Assembly: GCF_005869845.1 (NCBI RefSeq) | Contig: NZ_VAWF01000005.1 | Location: 62,001 to 126,000, forward strand | Direction: 5' to 3' | DNA: 64,000 nt | Source of the DNA: Fodinibius saliphilus | GTDB taxonomy: Bacteria; Bacteroidota; Rhodothermia; Balneolales; Balneolaceae | Shown: positions 6,092 to 64,000 of the stretch, piece after piece | Position numbering within the stretch: position 1 is the first letter of the stretch | Layout of the letters: each line of letters begins with the position of its first letter | The notes under the pieces: model-generated | The model's input: only the letters and a program-made list of their open reading frames with translations | Database searches by the model: none | What the model was told of the DNA's origin: nothing | Made by a program: the position numbers and the translations under genes

Positions 6092-6741
6092 AATCGCTCA
6101 TATATGCTATTAAAAAAGAGTGGTACAATATCTTTCTATTGTTCCTGCCCATTGTAGTTATTCCATTTATCTGGGATTTATTGCCGGAACGCATTCCATC
6201 TCACTGGAACTTTGAAGGAGAAGTTGATGAGTACAGTAACAAAATATTCGGGGTATTCTTTCTTCCACTACTTAACATTATCATATATCTAATTCTTCTT
6301 TATCTCCCCAAAATAGATCCCAAACAGCGTATTTCAATCGACCAAAAACCGATACCGGTATTACGGACTTTAACAGTAGTATTAATATTGGGTATCCACA
6401 TTTTTATTATGAGTAATGCGATGGGTTATAATATCCTAACTCAAGGTGGTCTGTTTCTTGGGTTATCCCTTTTCTTTGTAGTCATGGGTAATTATCTACG
6501 AACGATAAAACCCAATTATTTTATAGGAATTCGAGTACCTTGGGCTCTAGAGGATGATGATAATTGGCGAAAAACTCATAAGGTGGGTTCATACCTTTGG
6601 GTTGCAGGTGGGCTTCTGCTTCTTTTACTCTATCCGCTTCTTGATCTCAAAACATACAGCACCCTTTTTGGTGTTGTTGCTATGCTATTAGCACTTATTC
6701 CTACGGTGTACTCATTTTACCTCTATCAGAAACAACCCTAA
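6088..6741 (+). CDS. SdpI family membrane protein (DUF1648)
   Basis: Integral membrane protein of 217 residues with about six hydrophobic segments. The N-terminal DUF1648 signature is clear: LLPERIPSHWNFEGEVDEYSNK, around residues 30-51. A second SdpI-type segment follows (NYLRTIKPNYFIGIRVPWALEDDDNWRKTHKVGSYLW). In Bacillus subtilis SdpI protects against the SdpC toxin and also captures the repressor SdpR at the membrane. No SdpC-like toxin gene is visible near here. It is translationally coupled to the regulator (ATGA overlap) and followed 4 bases later by the hydrolase gene. Toxin immunity is only one possibility, since many SdpI homologues have no known toxin. Confidence 0.88.
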   Translation: MKSLIYAIKKEWYNIFLLFLPIVVIPFIWDLLPERIPSHWNFEGEVDEYSNKIFGVFFLPLLNIIIYLILLYLPKIDPKQRISIDQKPIPVLRTLTVVLILGIHIFIMSNAMGYNILTQGGLFLGLSLFFVVMGNYLRTIKPNYFIGIRVPWALEDDDNWRKTHKVGSYLWVAGGLLLLLLYPLLDLKTYSTLFGVVAMLLALIPTVYSFYLYQKQP

Positions 6742-6745
6742 AGCT

Positions 6746-7807
6746 ATGAAAAAAGTAACCTTAATAATTATATCTCTCTTATTTAGCTGGACAGCCGTAG
6801 CCCAATATCCAGAAAGTTTCAACCAAAAAGAGTTGATTATCAAAGATAACTCTACAAAAATTGGGGGAACTCTTACATGGCCAAAAAATAGTTCCCCGAA
6901 TGCAATAGTTATTATGATTTCTGGTAGTGGAGCCCAAGACCGTGATGAAACGATGAACCCCATAAGTAATTTTAAGCCTTTCGCCCTTTTGGCAGATTCT
7001 CTCACCTCGGGTGGTCTTGCTACTTTTCGGTATGATGATCGTGGCATTGGGGCTTCTACTGGTAGTTTTTCGGATGCAACGCTAGATACACTTGCCTCTG
7101 ATGTGGAGACAATAATAAAGTATTTTCACAAAAAGGATACTCCATCTTTTTCTGAAATTATTTTACTGGGACACAGTCAGGGAGGCCTTGTCGGAGAAAA
7201 GGTAGCCGTTAAAAACCGATCCGTAAATAAACTCATCTTAATGGCCTCTGCCGGTATTCCTCTTCAAAAAATTTTGCGCCATCAAGTACAACGTGCCTTT
7301 TCCCGTGCCTTTATTGATTCGGTTCTTGCCGCAAAAGAGATTAATGCTCGCGAACAACTAATGGATGCAACCAAAAACGATACAAACATTGACGAGGCCC
7401 AGAAAAGATACCGTACCCAATTTGCTGCAATACAACGCAGTGTTGGAATAGATTCTAGCCGGGCATCTCAAATAGCTCAAAAGCAAGCCCGACAGCTCAC
7501 AAAAGTTTACCGGTCTCCTCAATTACAATCCCTGCTCTATTATGATCCAGTCATTGACCTTAAAAAACTCGATATTCCTGTGCTCATACTCTTCGGTGGT
7601 AAAGATACTCAAGTAACGGTAGAAATGAATAAGCCCCCCATGAAAGAGGCTATGGAATCAACAGGAGTACCTTACCAAATTGAAGTGTTTCCAAATGCAA
7701 ATCACCCATTCCAAAAAGCCAAAACGGGTGATCTACAAGAATACGGTCAACTTAAACATCACTTCGTAGATGGCTTCACTTCTACAATAATAGAGTGGAT
7801 TAAATAA
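6746..7807 (+). CDS. exported alpha/beta hydrolase, third gene of the sdpRI-like operon
   Basis: Serine hydrolase of 353 residues with an N-terminal secretion signal (MKKVTLIIISLLFSWTAVAQ, cleavage after AVAQ). The catalytic triad is readable: nucleophile serine in GHSQGG (about residue 145), aspartate in LFGGKDTQV (about 287) and histidine in FPNANHPFQ (about 323). An MISGSGAQDRDE oxyanion-hole region precedes them. A helical lid of about 90 residues separates the nucleophile from the acid. This layout is like periplasmic acyl-peptide/prolyl-oligopeptidase-like esterases of unknown substrate. It starts 4 bases after the SdpI-like gene, so the three genes are very probably one transcript. Confidence 0.85.
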   Translation: MKKVTLIIISLLFSWTAVAQYPESFNQKELIIKDNSTKIGGTLTWPKNSSPNAIVIMISGSGAQDRDETMNPISNFKPFALLADSLTSGGLATFRYDDRGIGASTGSFSDATLDTLASDVETIIKYFHKKDTPSFSEIILLGHSQGGLVGEKVAVKNRSVNKLILMASAGIPLQKILRHQVQRAFSRAFIDSVLAAKEINAREQLMDATKNDTNIDEAQKRYRTQFAAIQRSVGIDSSRASQIAQKQARQLTKVYRSPQLQSLLYYDPVIDLKKLDIPVLILFGGKDTQVTVEMNKPPMKEAMESTGVPYQIEVFPNANHPFQKAKTGDLQEYGQLKHHFVDGFTSTIIEWIK

Positions 7808-59271: not shown

Positions 59272-59715
59272 ATGATGAACCAAAAATATCGACGTTATTC
59301 CATATTAACCATAAGAATTATTTTAGGATTACTATTCCTGATTTCGGGGGTGGGCAAACTCATCAATGGGGCCGACGCACGATACCTTGTAGAACTGCTG
59401 GCTACAGAATATTTTTGGCTTATCGAATATGCATCAATAATAGTAATAGGAACTTCAATATTGGAATTGATTCTCGCAATTTTTTTACTCTGGGGAAAAT
59501 ACCTGAAGTGGGCTCTTTCGGTTACCCTGCTTATGCTAATCGGCTTTTCTTCGATACTGAGTTACTTTTACCTACAAGGAATGAGTATTGACAGTTGTGG
59601 ATGTTTTGGTGCCTTTGGCTTTGCCTCGGGACTGGAGTTTACGCTAATTCGAAATCTCATACTAGTTTCATTAATTCTAGGGGCTTATCTACTGATGACT
59701 TCAAATAGGGATTAA
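59272..59715 (+). CDS. MauE/DoxX-like membrane protein with CGC motif
   Basis: 147-residue membrane protein with four helices (about residues 12-30, 48-72, 78-100, 122-143). The opening RIILGLLFLISGVGKLINGADA and the late SCGCFGAFG (cysteines near 108 and 110) fit the MauE/DoxX group, which includes proteins that reduce thiols across the membrane or make methylamine dehydrogenase. Likely redox role: it carries a cysteine pair and lies near a C39 exporter and a thioredoxin-fold protein, although it converges on that group and cannot share its transcript. ATG at 59272 or 59275. Confidence 0.82.
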   Translation: MMNQKYRRYSILTIRIILGLLFLISGVGKLINGADARYLVELLATEYFWLIEYASIIVIGTSILELILAIFLLWGKYLKWALSVTLLMLIGFSSILSYFYLQGMSIDSCGCFGAFGFASGLEFTLIRNLILVSLILGAYLLMTSNRD

Positions 59716-59816: not shown

Positions 59817-62012
59817 TTAGCTCTTGCTTACAGAGATGTCTGCTAATGATCGTGAAAACAAGTTATCCTGTACAGCAAGCTCTTCCGGTGTTCCTTCCTG
59901 AGTAACATTACCTTCATTAAGAATATAAATTCGATCAACAAGCTTTGTACTTTGTACCCGATGGGTGACGAGAATAATAGCCATCTTATCTTTTAGTGAA
60001 GATAGTAAATCAAATATTTTCTGCTCTGTTTCCCGATCCATGGCCGAGGTCGCTTCATCCAGTAATAACAGATCGGGTTCTTGGTATAAAGCTCGAGCTA
60101 AAGCAACTAACTGCTGTTGACCACCGGAAATATTAGCCCCTTCTTCTCCCAAAATTGTTGCGTACTGTTGAGGAAAATCTTTAAAAAAGAGATGGAATCC
60201 ATAATCTTTACAAAACTGAACCATTTGCTCTGCTTCTTCCTGCACATTCCCCAGGCAAATATTATCTAATAGTGTGCCGTTAAAAATCTTAATCTGCTGC
60301 GGTACAGAAGCTATATGGTTGCGCCAATCCTGAACCATTATCTCCCTTAGTTTACCGTTGCCATTCACAGAAATAGCACCTCCCTCAGCTTCATAAAAAC
60401 GCTGTAAGATCTGTAACATTGTCGTCTTTCCACAGCCACTTTCGCCCAATAAGGCAATCATCTCTCCCTGTTCAACAGAAAAAGAGATATCTTTCAAAAG
60501 CTGACTGCGGCCCGGGAAACGAAATGATAACTCAGACACAGAAAGTTTCTTTATAGCTCCTATTGACTCATCTTTGTCTGAACTCTCAGAATACTCCGGT
60601 TCCAATGATGTAAACTCATACATACGCTCAAAGGCTACTTTGGCCTCTTGTAGTCGTATATTAGTTAGAGCAAGCCGGTTTGCAGAAGGAATAAGCTGGC
60701 TGGTCATCTGGAAGATCGCCACTAATGCACCCAATAGGATCTGTTCCTGTAGCACTAGCATTGAAGCCAATCCCAATACACCAACCATAAAAAACGTGCT
60801 GATCATATTCGCCCAAAAAGAAAATGAAATCCCAATCTTTCCGAGATCAAAAATCTGGTCTTGAAAAAATCCATATACGTTTTTGGTCACCGTCGAAAAG
60901 AACGACTCTCGATTACCGGTTTTAATGGTAGCAATGCCCTGGATAGTATCTACATAATTACTCTCATTGGTTGAGTGGGCAGCCATTACTTTTTTCTGTC
61001 CCTGTAAAATGGCATCATTATATCTCCATGTGAGTAAGAAAAACAGGGGTACACTCAACCAAACGAATAGCCCCAAATAAACTGAATAAGTCATTATAAA
61101 AATACCTGCTGTAAGAACGAGCAATATGTCTATCATAATCTCGCTAAACAGGTAGGTAATTGTTTTCTGTAACCTACGGGTATCATTCATACGTGCAATC
61201 AGATCACCCGTTTTTCGATTAAAGAAAAAAGGAACCGGCAGCTTTAGCAAAGAACTATAAAAGGAATTTATAATGCGATTATTAAAGTCCCTGCTCTGCC
61301 GCACTAAAAAGAGTTGGCGGATATAAGAGAACCCATTTTTTGCTACCAGCAGCACCCCGAGCAATCCCAATCCAACGATTAGCTTTGTTGTATCTTCGGC
61401 CGGCAATATCTCATCAATTAACTTCTGTGAAAATATAGCCGTGGCCAGGCTCAATATGGATACGAAGATCCCCAATGCCAAGGCAAGACTTAATATTGTA
61501 ATATCCTCACGTACCAGTTGCTTAATCCACCGCCAGCGGTCCTCCTTTTTCTCCTCTACTGTAGTGAATTCGGGAGTAGGTTTTAGTAACAACAGAGCTT
61601 TGCTTTCCCAAACTTCTTCTATTTCATTAGCCGTTAACTGCTTAACCCCTTCTGCCGGGTCACTGATAATAAACCGATCATTTTCTATCCCATAAAAAAT
61701 CACGTAATGCTGCAAACGACCATCTTTAACAACATGCAGAATGCATGGATCCGTCTGTTCTTTAAGATTTTCGATATCAGCCTTGTATGCTTCGGCCTCT
61801 AATCCCACTTCTCCGGCTGCCTGGTATAACCCCAACAGTTTTGTTCCCTGTTTGGAAGTACCGCTAAGCTCCCTTAGACGCTCCAGCTTTGACTCTCCAC
61901 CCAAATAGTTGATAACGCTTAAAAGACAAGCTACGCCACAATCAGATTGATCCTGTTGATGAACAAATACTTCTTCTGCTCTCTTTTCCAACTTAGAATT
62001 CTTATTCCACAT
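59817..62012 (-). CDS. C39-peptidase ABC exporter (double-glycine peptide transporter type)
   Basis: 731-residue fused exporter of the PCAT type: it cuts the leader of a small peptide after a double-glycine and moves it across the inner membrane. Domains in order: C39 peptidase (residues 15-140) with the catalytic triad C25 (QDQSDCGVAC), H102 (LQHYVIFYG) and D118 (IISDPAEG); six-helix membrane domain (about 165-450); ABC domain with Walker A GESGCGKTT (about 529), Q-loop, signature ISGGQQQ (about 634) and Walker B LLLLDEATSAMD. The peptidase triad is intact, so it should be active. No precursor peptide with a GG leader is obvious in the window. A 22-base hairpin lies 19 bases upstream of the ATG. 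Confidence 0.93.
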   Translation of the reverse strand: MWNKNSKLEKRAEEVFVHQQDQSDCGVACLLSVINYLGGESKLERLRELSGTSKQGTKLLGLYQAAGEVGLEAEAYKADIENLKEQTDPCILHVVKDGRLQHYVIFYGIENDRFIISDPAEGVKQLTANEIEEVWESKALLLLKPTPEFTTVEEKKEDRWRWIKQLVREDITILSLALALGIFVSILSLATAIFSQKLIDEILPAEDTTKLIVGLGLLGVLLVAKNGFSYIRQLFLVRQSRDFNNRIINSFYSSLLKLPVPFFFNRKTGDLIARMNDTRRLQKTITYLFSEIMIDILLVLTAGIFIMTYSVYLGLFVWLSVPLFFLLTWRYNDAILQGQKKVMAAHSTNESNYVDTIQGIATIKTGNRESFFSTVTKNVYGFFQDQIFDLGKIGISFSFWANMISTFFMVGVLGLASMLVLQEQILLGALVAIFQMTSQLIPSANRLALTNIRLQEAKVAFERMYEFTSLEPEYSESSDKDESIGAIKKLSVSELSFRFPGRSQLLKDISFSVEQGEMIALLGESGCGKTTMLQILQRFYEAEGGAISVNGNGKLREIMVQDWRNHIASVPQQIKIFNGTLLDNICLGNVQEEAEQMVQFCKDYGFHLFFKDFPQQYATILGEEGANISGGQQQLVALARALYQEPDLLLLDEATSAMDRETEQKIFDLLSSLKDKMAIILVTHRVQSTKLVDRIYILNEGNVTQEGTPEELAVQDNLFSRSLADISVSKS

Positions 62013-62030
62013 CTCTGACCCCCTCTGTAT

Positions 62031-62052
62031 CTCCCCCTACAAGCAGGGGGAG
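62031..62052. repeat. short GC-rich palindrome upstream of the C39 exporter
   Basis: CTCCCCCT (62031-62038) pairs with AGGGGGAG (62045-62052) on a 6-base loop. It sits in the 83-base gap between the thioredoxin-fold gene and the exporter gene. Similar CCCCCT..AGGGGG elements are common dispersed repeats between bacterial genes. No T-run follows on either strand, so it is not a clear terminator. Confidence 0.55.
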
Positions 62053-62095
62053 AGTTCTTTCAGGCAAATTGCTATCCGATCAGTTTCTCTCAACT

Positions 62096-62611
62096 TTACC
62101 GAACCGATCCATACAACACCTCAGCCTTCGTTTCTCCTTTAAAGTTTTTAAGCAATTTCCTGTCCTCATCGTACACAAATGTATTAGGCACCCCTTTAAC
62201 CCCAAATAGTTCTTTCACCTCTCCCTGGGTATCCCTCAAAATCTGAATGGCAGATAACGAATCGAGCCCAAAACTACTCGAGAATGCTTCTAATTTTTCG
62301 AGAGGCTCATTTGACACCAGATATATATGAGCCTTCTCTTGTAGCGCCTGATGCCCTTTCATACTGTTGATTTCTGCGCGGCAGTACTCACATTCTGTGT
62401 TGAAGTAGGTGATAATGACAGGAATCTGTCCAGAGTTTTTCTCACTGTGGATAGTTTTTCCGCCGAGGGTTGCCAAAGAAAATGAAGGGAGTTGCGAAAT
62501 ACGTTCTTTGACTCGTTGCTTTTGTTCTAACTCTTCATAGATTGAAAATCCCAAGTAACCAATTGCACCCATGACCAACAACAAAAAGGCTAAAGCAATT
62601 TTCCGTTTCAT
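62096..62611 (-). CDS. membrane-anchored thioredoxin-fold (TlpA/redoxin-like) protein
   Basis: 171-residue protein with one N-terminal membrane helix (IALAFLLLVMGAIGYLGFSIY, residues 5-25) and an outer TlpA-like domain. The active site is C74-E-Y-C77 in ITYFNTECEYCRAEIN, and the cis-proline loop is GVKGVPNTFVYDEDRKLLKNFKG. CEYC differs from the CPHC or CPPC of DsbA/TlpA but is used by AhpC/TSA-redoxin-like proteins. It probably acts in the periplasm as a thiol reductant or disulfide isomerase. Directly upstream of the exporter on the same strand, which suggests the exported peptide contains cysteines (inference). Confidence 0.9.
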   Translation of the reverse strand: MKRKIALAFLLLVMGAIGYLGFSIYEELEQKQRVKERISQLPSFSLATLGGKTIHSEKNSGQIPVIITYFNTECEYCRAEINSMKGHQALQEKAHIYLVSNEPLEKLEAFSSSFGLDSLSAIQILRDTQGEVKELFGVKGVPNTFVYDEDRKLLKNFKGETKAEVLYGSVR

Positions 62612-62945
62612 CTATTTCTTTTTATTGGAAAATGACAAAATATTCAGATGATACAATCTCTGACTATATCCGATATGTTTGCTCTCTCTCCCTTTTGTTT
62701 GATCGTAATGCTTGATGCAGGATAAAAAATGGGGGAAAGCTTAGAATCCTTCTTGGAGCTGCGACCAACTACCGTCTGTAAGAGGAATTTAGCTAAGCTC
62801 TACAAAGGTTTCATCGCAGTAAAAGGAAATTAGAAAGGATATAACCCTCTGTTTTCAACTAGCTAAACCCGTTATGAGATATTGATCCACCCAGATGGCA
62901 AACAGCATGATATAATGCAGGTGGTTCTGCAAAGCCCCCTCATAC
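62612..62945. other. 334-base gap between membrane protein and thioredoxin-fold genes
   Basis: No recognised gene fills this gap. On the minus strand a 23-codon frame (62872-62943) begins 2 bases after the stop of the upstream membrane-protein gene. On the plus strand there are short frames of 27 and 34 codons that look random. No terminator hairpin or strong palindrome was seen. It is the natural place for a small peptide or promoter of the exporter unit, but nothing decisive is visible. Confidence 0.5.
62872..62943 (-). CDS. possible cysteine-rich small peptide (uncertain)
   Basis: A 23-codon frame starting ATG AGG GGG CTT and ending TAA. The peptide opens MRGLCRTTCIISCC and has four cysteines (residues 5, 9, 14, 15). 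Its ATG lies 2 bases after the stop of the preceding membrane-protein gene, as in coupled translation. It precedes a thioredoxin-fold gene and a C39 exporter gene on the same strand. Against it: no double-glycine leader, no clear Shine-Dalgarno, and a frame this short is expected by chance. Confidence 0.2.
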   Translation of the reverse strand: MRGLCRTTCIISCCLPSGWINIS

Positions 62946-63641
62946 TTAACTGATCTGGAGGGTTATGAAAATCACAAACACTAACCATAATAAAAGCCCG
63001 GTTATATAAGAAGGTATAACTACTAACATACTCTCCGAAAAATCTTTCTCCCACTGCCTTGACAGTAACCAACCAATAACTACCATATAAGCAACTTCAA
63101 ACAGATTTAGTGTCTCCAAGGGGTATTGAAGCCATTGTACCACATTTTCGGTTCCGAAAAAGCTTAGCATGGTTAAGGGATAATAACTAGCAGCTGTTTC
63201 TAATGTAAGAGTATCCAGATGAAAAGAAAGATTAATCAAGTATAATACTTGAGCCATGATAAAAACTATTTCTGCTAACAAAGTAGATTTAAACACCAGA
63301 CTAAATGAAAACTTAATATCTGACAAAACTAGCCCTATGCTAATACAAATACTGACAAAACAAAATTTGATTAAAAGTAGTACAGGCTGAAAAACATAGT
63401 CCATCCACCAAATCCTTTCTCTAATATTGAGCAGTCCTTCAATGCTTTGCTGAGTTAGTTGATCAGAATAGCTACGATAAAATATTTGGTCTGTAAAAAT
63501 ATAAGTGTTAGCGACAAGCCTTAAAGCCATATAGGCTAAACAAACAAAAATAAAGATAATCCACTTTTTATCTACCTTTTCCAAAAACGAAACGAAATTT
63601 ATAAAATTAGTACCCCAATTAATTTTAGTAAAGGCTTCCAT
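62946..63641 (-). CDS. unknown multi-pass membrane protein next to the C39 exporter
   Basis: 231-residue protein I do not recognise, with about five membrane helices (near residues 27-46, 80-104, 116-138, 146-165, 180-195 and 205-228). The N-terminal 25 residues are soluble (MEAFTKINWGTNFINFVSFLEKVDKK). There are no obvious catalytic residues and three cysteines, two in FCFVSICISI. General layout resembles Yip1/YIF1-like or exporter-partner membrane proteins, but no family can be named. Its start is 3 bases after the stop of the next upstream gene, so they are one transcript. It could be an immunity or transport partner. Confidence 0.72.
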   Translation of the reverse strand: MEAFTKINWGTNFINFVSFLEKVDKKWIIFIFVCLAYMALRLVANTYIFTDQIFYRSYSDQLTQQSIEGLLNIRERIWWMDYVFQPVLLLIKFCFVSICISIGLVLSDIKFSFSLVFKSTLLAEIVFIMAQVLYLINLSFHLDTLTLETAASYYPLTMLSFFGTENVVQWLQYPLETLNLFEVAYMVVIGWLLSRQWEKDFSESMLVVIPSYITGLLLWLVFVIFITLQIS

Positions 63642-63644
63642 TTG

Positions 63645-64000
63645 TCAAACACCTCTTAATTTTTGGTAAGCATATTTTGAAATAGTAGAAATTTTAATTT
63701 GGGCAAAGTATAGACTTATAACAGATACCAATATTAACAATAGTGAGCCTTCAAGCATATAGGATGTCTGTCGCATTTGATAAACTATAAAAGAAGTAAT
63801 AACTAATGCTGATACCCCCCATGGATTAAAATCGTTTGATCGTTCTTTTAAGAAACTGAAATTAAAAAATAGAAAGTTATCTGTGAATTGAGGTCTATAT
63901 AAAGCAAACCAAAAGCTAACTACAGTTAAAATTATAAAGTTATTAATGTAAAATAATACATTATACCAAGACAAAAACCCTGTTATTATAATGAAGGACC
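63645..64000 (-). CDS. unknown membrane protein, N-terminal part cut off by the window edge
   Basis: Only the C-terminal 118 or so residues are seen. The first visible start is TTG at 63974, but the frame stays open through the right edge (FIIITGFLSWYNVLF), so the real start is likely beyond base 64000. Hydrophobic segments are at about IINNFIILTVVSFWFALY, FNPWGVSALVITSFIVYQM and LEGSLLLILVSVISLYFAQI. The end is KISTISKYAYQKLRGV. Not recognised. It is 3 bases upstream of the 231-residue membrane protein, probably the start of the exporter-linked transcript. Confidence 0.68.
   Translation of the reverse strand, partial: SFIIITGFLSWYNVLFYINNFIILTVVSFWFALYRPQFTDNFLFFNFSFLKERSNDFNPWGVSALVITSFIVYQMRQTSYMLEGSLLLILVSVISLYFAQIKISTISKYAYQKLRGV

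Follow-up and report, generated by a model that had tools for sequence, protein, structure and literature searches.

The window analysed here, a stretch of 64,000 nucleotides from the 3.6-Mb genome of the Balneolaceae member Fodinibius saliphilus (G000:C5:62001-126000), ends within a gene cluster around an ATP-binding cassette (ABC) exporter with a C39 peptidase domain, and the question raised by this locus is which substrate the exporter carries and what its neighbours contribute. An earlier reading of the window (the sequence-only reading) had noted no evident substrate and had suggested that a cysteine-containing precursor, possibly of a new product, may lie past the right edge. The contig extends 12.5 kb beyond this edge, and the edge and its flanks were covered by stretch L003 (18.5 kb; window position = L003 position + 57,999). 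A precursor with a double-glycine (GG) leader and two cysteines was found there, 1,860 bases beyond the right edge, so that the lack of a substrate holds for the window only. The cluster is best explained as a bacteroidetocin-type operon that makes and exports one small, unmodified bacteriocin (probability approximately 0.78). This assignment is based on the presence of all four published parts of bacteroidetocin regions, the five long helices in the structure model of a 231-residue membrane protein and the retention of the CxxC motif and a proline in 24 of 24 aligned redoxin relatives.

Gene content and order of the operon

The operon runs in the order precursor, ABC ATPase, 453-residue permease, 231-residue membrane protein, redoxin and C39 exporter. 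Its features, together with the gene upstream of it, are:

L003 8314-8721, upstream of the precursor: AraC-type protein, 135 amino acids, candidate regulator (HTH_18, E 6e-12)
L003 7861-8022, minus strand: precursor peptide, 53 amino acids, leader METLELHQMEQIEGG, core RDVNLEVCQSQDLWAHAVRVIPGVGSFCLGVAIGNYFY
L003 7794-7833, between precursor and ATPase: hairpin of 17 pairs
L003 7013-7756, beyond the right edge, minus strand: ABC ATPase, 247 amino acids (Pfam/NCBIfam)
63645..65006 (L003 5646-7007), minus strand: polytopic membrane protein, 453 amino acids, presumed partner of the ABC ATPase; the part inside the window (63645..64000) is its C-terminal end
62946..63641, minus strand: multi-pass membrane protein, 231 amino acids, member of the conserved trio (profiles, structure model)
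62096..62611, minus strand: ResA/TlpA-like thiol-disulfide oxidoreductase (redoxin), 171 amino acids, with a CEYC motif and an N-terminal hydrophobic anchor (Pfam, alignment)
59817..62012, minus strand: C39 ABC exporter (peptidase-containing ABC transporter, PCAT), 731 amino acids, predicted to remove the leader and export the peptide (Pfam)

The sequence-only reading had described an intact exporter with C25, H102 and D118, all of which are in place by direct reading, and a CEYC redoxin preceding it, which is present (ECEYC, 62096-62611, minus strand). It had also listed two unknown membrane proteins 3 bases apart; this spacing is correct (open reading frame end at 63645), but the outermost of the two is the end of the permease, which is separated from the ATPase by 5 bases.

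The Peptidase_C39 model of Pfam matched the exporter with 124.2 bits in a whole-genome search and 119.7 bits in a protein scan, and its ABC_membrane and ABC_tran domains scored above cut-off. H102 and D118 were invariant in an alignment of five exporters; C25 was not among the invariant positions, because the open reading frame taken for one member (L032) begins downstream of the cysteine. The closest solved relatives were led by an ABC-type bacteriocin transporter (4ry2), with ComA further down. The exporter is encoded by two open reading frames at some related loci, with the break ahead of the ABC domain in L026 as well as L035 and with a separate C39 domain in L037.

The precursor consists of a leader of 15 residues, which matches the family consensus MKkLELnQME.I.GG, and a core of 38 residues with cysteines at core positions C8 and C28. 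The expectation of a new product was borne out for the peptide itself, but its kind is already known. L003 contains one credible precursor and thus not the two expected of class IIb systems; the only other frame with a GG pattern (L003 7985-8134) overlaps the precursor in a different frame and has a core without cysteine. The hairpin behind the precursor has a folding energy of -19.5 kcal/mol (z -4.2), and none of 200 shuffled sequences was as stable; since the region holds 7 terminator-like sites, compared with 5.0 expected, the hairpin scan by itself proves nothing. The hairpin could allow higher transcription of the precursor than of the genes downstream.

Conservation of the trio and of the two-cysteine pattern

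Genomes were scanned with the alignment of exporters, and of the 245 relatives obtained, the best 80 by similarity to the exporter of the window were retained; these loci were chosen by likeness to this exporter, and they are interrelated. Comparison of their neighbourhoods with custom profiles showed the membrane protein, redoxin and exporter (the trio) complete, in the same order and on one strand in 68 of the 80 loci. Of the remaining 12, 11 have an exporter that starts no more than ~1.9 kb from where the stretch ends, and one (L044) lacks the redoxin.

Leaders were identified by a pattern (hydrophobic residues at -12, -7 and -4; GG, GA or GS) that misses variants, among them both precursors of L028, and misreads one precursor of L032. 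In the 68 trio loci, 94 open reading frames with such leaders share the strand of the operon and 8 are antisense to it; 58 of these loci contained at least one, and 26 of the 58 at least two. Of 92 distinct cores (merged only when identical), 72 had exactly two cysteines, compared with 26.8% expected from a binomial model of equal cysteine frequency. The others contained none (5 cores), one (3), three (3), four (8) or five (1), and six of these 20 come from a single locus with another type of leader (L115). L115 (3815-7537) encodes eight GG-leader frames, six of which have the leader KKL.LKKM..AQL...KGG or close variants and 3-5 cysteines. In the 72 two-cysteine cores, the first cysteine stands at median position 5 and the last 5 residues from the end, and the pair spans a median of 78% of the core, compared with 30% for random positions. 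We therefore offer as a peptide rule two cysteines near both ends, and the relatives supply dozens of candidate peptides.

As a control, 77 PCAT loci were taken from 198 genomes across the phylum (frame of ~450 amino acids or more and E of ~1e-17 or less, with one split exporter added), leaving out shorter and weaker PCAT matches. Eight of them had the 231-residue protein; seven of these also had the redoxin and none had HlyD. Of the other 69, 61 had HlyD and 8 neither HlyD nor the 231-residue protein, and no HlyD was matched in L003 with the custom profile. Two cysteines were found in 10 of 13 GG-leader frames on the operon strand at the eight loci with the 231-residue protein, but in only 3 of 34 distinct cores of the HlyD-type loci (27 of the 34 have 0, 4, 6 or 8), these cores coming from 18 of the 61 loci. 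The redoxin of the trio profile occurred in 4 of the 61 HlyD-type loci. The idea that a disulfide-handling partner travels with a cysteine-containing peptide thus agrees with the finding that redoxin and exporter accompany mostly two-cysteine precursors phylum-wide. In a tree of 86 exporters, built by a quick method without bootstrap and with some long branches, 17 trio-type exporters form one side of a branch (Shimodaira-Hasegawa-like approximate likelihood ratio test 99); these 17 comprise six of the eight sample loci (L026 and L035 were removed by a 500-residue filter) and 11 picked from the 80.

The 231-residue protein showed five long helices by eye in its structure model (mean predicted local distance difference test score, pLDDT, 90.7). 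It matched no family of Pfam or NCBIfam with an E of 1 or less, 2 of 25 relatives matched Pfam Yip1 (best 2.3e-5), and a fold search of the model against the PDB found no structure with an E of 0.001 or less. Its matches in the first phylum sample came from 13 of 198 genomes and lie at 15 places, eight of which adjoin a PCAT (L003, L024, L025, L026, L028, L032, L035 and L037). At the other seven (L027, L029, L030, L031, L033, L034 and L036), no PCAT was found in the stretch fetched, so that the idea of the protein marking bacteriocin loci in general held only in part. The protein is present in 7 of 92 Balneolaceae genomes; searches with its alignment matched none of 86 genomes in the family of G028 and none of 98 in its order, and 8 of 79 and 12 of 164 in the family and order, respectively, of G074. 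A plasmid search with P0004 returned two Flammeovirga records, and one with the protein of L106 returned nothing. At L222 (4019-4751; G424) the gene is broken into two frames, next to a redoxin, an exporter, ABC genes and two precursors. The two-cysteine precursor pair of L222 (6906-7326) is, by eye, the same as that of L024 (2786-3219; Fodinibius salipaludis, G151), which suggests a two-peptide bacteriocin with its own bridge in each peptide.

Comparison with known systems

Bacteroidetocins are a proposed class IIf of 19 peptides in Bacteroidetes, whose export from the cell was left open in the excerpts available of the original report (Coyne et al. 2019, Nat Commun 10:3460, PMC6671954). According to these excerpts, their regions encode, besides a C39 exporter, a five-transmembrane protein, a peptide with a GG leader and a thiol oxidoreductase, and deleting any of these last three reduced activity. 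In E. coli the four genes were enough for toxin production, immunity was conferred by neither accessory protein, and producers were self-inhibiting (PMC6671954). Members of the class are recognised by chained tblastn similarity to A/B and by killing of Bacteroidales/Bacteroidetes, and a further study gives BamA as the target (PMC8546649).

The present locus shares with these regions a leader of 15 residues (within the 15-16 given for class IIf), at least two cysteines, as in the wider set of 19 peptides (both PMC6671954, in part), a C39 ABC exporter in the same operon, a thiol oxidoreductase, here with CEYC and a conserved proline, and the order membrane protein, oxidoreductase, exporter. The 231-residue protein agrees with the five-transmembrane protein (EH213_01845) in position and helix content, the two being compared by description. 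The locus differs in that its precursor comes first rather than between membrane protein and oxidoreductase, in the added ABC ATPase-permease pair and in its host, which belongs to the Balneolota (NCBI taxonomy, same-genus species). The nearest stand-in for the published type is L106 (Dysgonamonadaceae), a locus on the same exporter branch with the gene order of bacteroidetocins A and B and a four-cysteine peptide.

Several points weigh against the bacteroidetocin-type assignment. It rests on architecture, the published genes having been compared by description. The core has 38 residues, compared with 42 in bacteroidetocins A and B and 42-48 when their three closest relatives are included, and two cysteines instead of the four similarly placed ones of these five peptides (PMC6671954, in part). 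No Pfam or NCBIfam model reached its cut-off for the precursor, nor did any NCBIfam model for the precursors of ten relatives; the best bacteriocin-like scores, from one peptide each, were 18.2 bits for lactococcin G-beta (cut-off 37) and 17 bits for TIGR04149 (cut-off 25). The cysteine pair of the core spans 20 of its 38 residues, below the family median, 10 of the 68 trio loci yield no GG-leader frame with the pattern used, and L035 combines the 231-residue protein with a four-cysteine peptide and no redoxin. In the published regions studied no immunity gene is obvious, and the producers are sensitive to their own peptide (PMC6671954), so that an immunity pump would depart from the type; moreover, the model of the permease was poor (pLDDT 58), and an ABC-2 fold is therefore not established for it. 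Finally, the published maps of 17 further bacteroidetocin regions may already include ABC genes.

Other bacteriocin classes fit less well. Colicin V-type and other HlyD-dependent systems likewise combine GG-leader precursors with a C39 ABC exporter, but they use HlyD, which occurs in 61 of the 69 PCAT loci lacking the 231-residue protein and not here. Class IIa (pediocin-like) peptides are also small, unmodified GG-leader peptides with cysteines; here, by contrast, the YGNGVxC motif is absent from the core by direct reading, the host is Gram-negative, and a thiol oxidoreductase and an extra membrane protein are added.

The available parts of the open-licence literature on Balneola/Fodinibius bacteriocins, class IIf and related topics contained no report of this variant, and bacteroidetocins are treated in two further papers with no mention of it in the parts available (PMC10352776, PMC11195462). 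The accessible text of a commentary on IIBacFinder describes class II bacteriocins predicted in Bacteroidota at large (PMC12648078), and those predictions may already include individual peptides of this family. New here are, as far as searched, the Balneolota host, the peptide, the ABC ATPase in all Balneolaceae clusters and the end-to-end pattern of two cysteines, with a plausible immunity part.

Role of the ABC ATPase-permease pair

The ATPase matched best in NCBIfam to TIGR03740, a lantibiotic-protection ATPase, with 152 bits (below the cut-off of 309.75); the permease had no Pfam or NCBIfam model at cut-off, and none of seven relatives matched a Pfam family. An ABC ATPase was present in 7 of 7 Balneolaceae clusters. 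In the wider set of 88 rows, 24 had one within 6 kb and on the strand of the exporter, compared with 1 of 69 other PCAT loci. These rows combine the eight sample loci with all of the 80 loci, whether complete or incomplete, and include three pairs that represent one genome or closely similar copies (L024/L040, L025/L041 and L026/L043), the last pair counting only for a detached exporter half; without duplicates and this half, the count is 20 of 85.

The full gene order of the operon is shared by a second Balneolaceae genome (L025), two Mucilaginibacter genomes and one of the Chitinophagaceae. In a Cytophagaceae genome (L046), ATPase and permease lie between membrane protein and redoxin, and in G151 an ABC ATPase of a different type and two other frames occupy the place of the pair. 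In G065, relatives of ATPase and permease lie between menC and a short-chain dehydrogenase/reductase (SDR) gene with the exporter absent, as expected of a resistance gene retained by a non-producer. Because of this finding and of the conserved placement of the pair, self-protection is our best guess for its role, favoured by a small margin over all else. That the pair is instead a second transporter, releasing for example the peptide from the outer leaflet or an unrelated substrate, appears rather unlikely. The sub-threshold match to the lantibiotic-protection model, the minority of wider-set loci with a nearby ABC ATPase and the description of bacteroidetocin regions without an obvious immunity gene in the excerpts of PMC6671954 speak for it, but the conserved operon position in three families, the other-type ATPase at the same place in G151 and the resistance-like occurrence in G065 speak against it.

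The suggestion that the two membrane proteins of the window provide immunity is to be modified accordingly. The 231-residue protein is unlikely to do so, because it belongs to the conserved production trio and because the bacteroidetocin protein of the same role was needed for full activity and gave no protection, according to the available text (PMC6671954); the second protein is read as the partner of the ABC ATPase. With self-protection as its favoured role, the pair seen here and at related loci is an immunity candidate for bacteroidetocins that can be put to the test.

Proposed production and export

The precursor would be made with its 15-residue GG leader, after which the C39 exporter would cleave behind the GG and pass the core of 38 residues through the inner membrane. 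The bond between C8 and C28 of the core would be formed by the membrane-anchored CEYC redoxin, the 231-residue protein would work with the exporter in the role that the adaptor HlyD has in other C39 systems, and the ABC pair would pump the peptide off the membrane of the producer. Related bacteria would be the probable targets. The contrast between HlyD-type and trio-type exporters makes the role of the 231-residue protein testable.

C74, C77 and P142 of the redoxin were invariant in 24 of 24 aligned relatives, and a search of the same genome for VKOR found none. ResA/TlpA-like proteins are often reductants, and the redoxin gene directly precedes that of the exporter, as it might if the protein kept the catalytic cysteine of the C39 domain reduced and did not act on the peptide. 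Such a function is improbable, since the C39 domain should face the cytoplasm with the anchored redoxin domain probably outside, since HlyD-type C39 loci rarely have this redoxin (4 of 61) and since it accompanies two-cysteine peptides. It is even less probable that the peptide is a signal (pheromone) rather than a toxin, with the ABC pair and the AraC-type protein serving sensing or response: ComA is one of the C39 exporters that carry signals and the DNA-binding protein is located upstream, but the cores are rich in glycine and alanine (16.9% and 16.0% in 92 cores) and differ strongly among related species, two or more precursors occur in 26 of 58 loci with any, and a closely similar architecture is that of a proven toxin locus (PMC6671954, in part), the survey of the stretch for receptors having extended to its lists of open reading frames.

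A wider proposal is put forward tentatively, as less likely than not. The trio may be an HlyD-independent secretion module of Bacteroidota and Balneolota for peptides with an end-to-end disulfide, in which the 231-residue protein replaces the adaptor and the redoxin closes the loop during export; the ABC pair of some lineages could then be the first known self-immunity of the bacteroidetocin class, and some loci might use two peptides together.

Insertion site and neighbouring genes

One further gene converges on the operon from the other side:

59272-59715, plus strand: MauE (Pfam MauE, E 4e-19), with the motif CGCFG

A MauE/DoxX-like protein with a CGC motif had been described at this position and is present; its listing with the exporter set was not sustained. 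The site was surveyed in ten same-genus genomes without the 231-residue protein. menC, MauE and the SDR gene were contiguous without the cluster in seven of them; in G391 (L216 9431-15388) the site holds ABC genes and a closely similar AraC-type gene, with exporter and precursor not found; in G395 it holds two other frames; and in G392 a MauE-family frame adjoins the SDR gene, with menC outside the stretch. Because same-genus genomes show a contiguous or differently filled site, the cluster is a variable insert between menC and MauE. MauE scored above cut-off in 82 of 92 Balneolaceae genomes, compared with 7 of 92 for the 231-residue protein, and was rejected as a part of the system in view of these counts and the empty sites; it is a core-genome neighbour. 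At the distant locus L032, MauE lies inside the operon, and a redox link is possible there. Sequences matching the AraC-type protein were found near the clusters of G399, G433 and G424 as well as at the G391 site.

The same genome encodes a second PCAT at L004 (6677-11137; G000:C3), an HlyD-type C39 locus that represents a different bacteriocin-like system. It contains two cysteine-free, glycine- and alanine-rich precursors with GG leaders (6677-6907 and 7086-7277).

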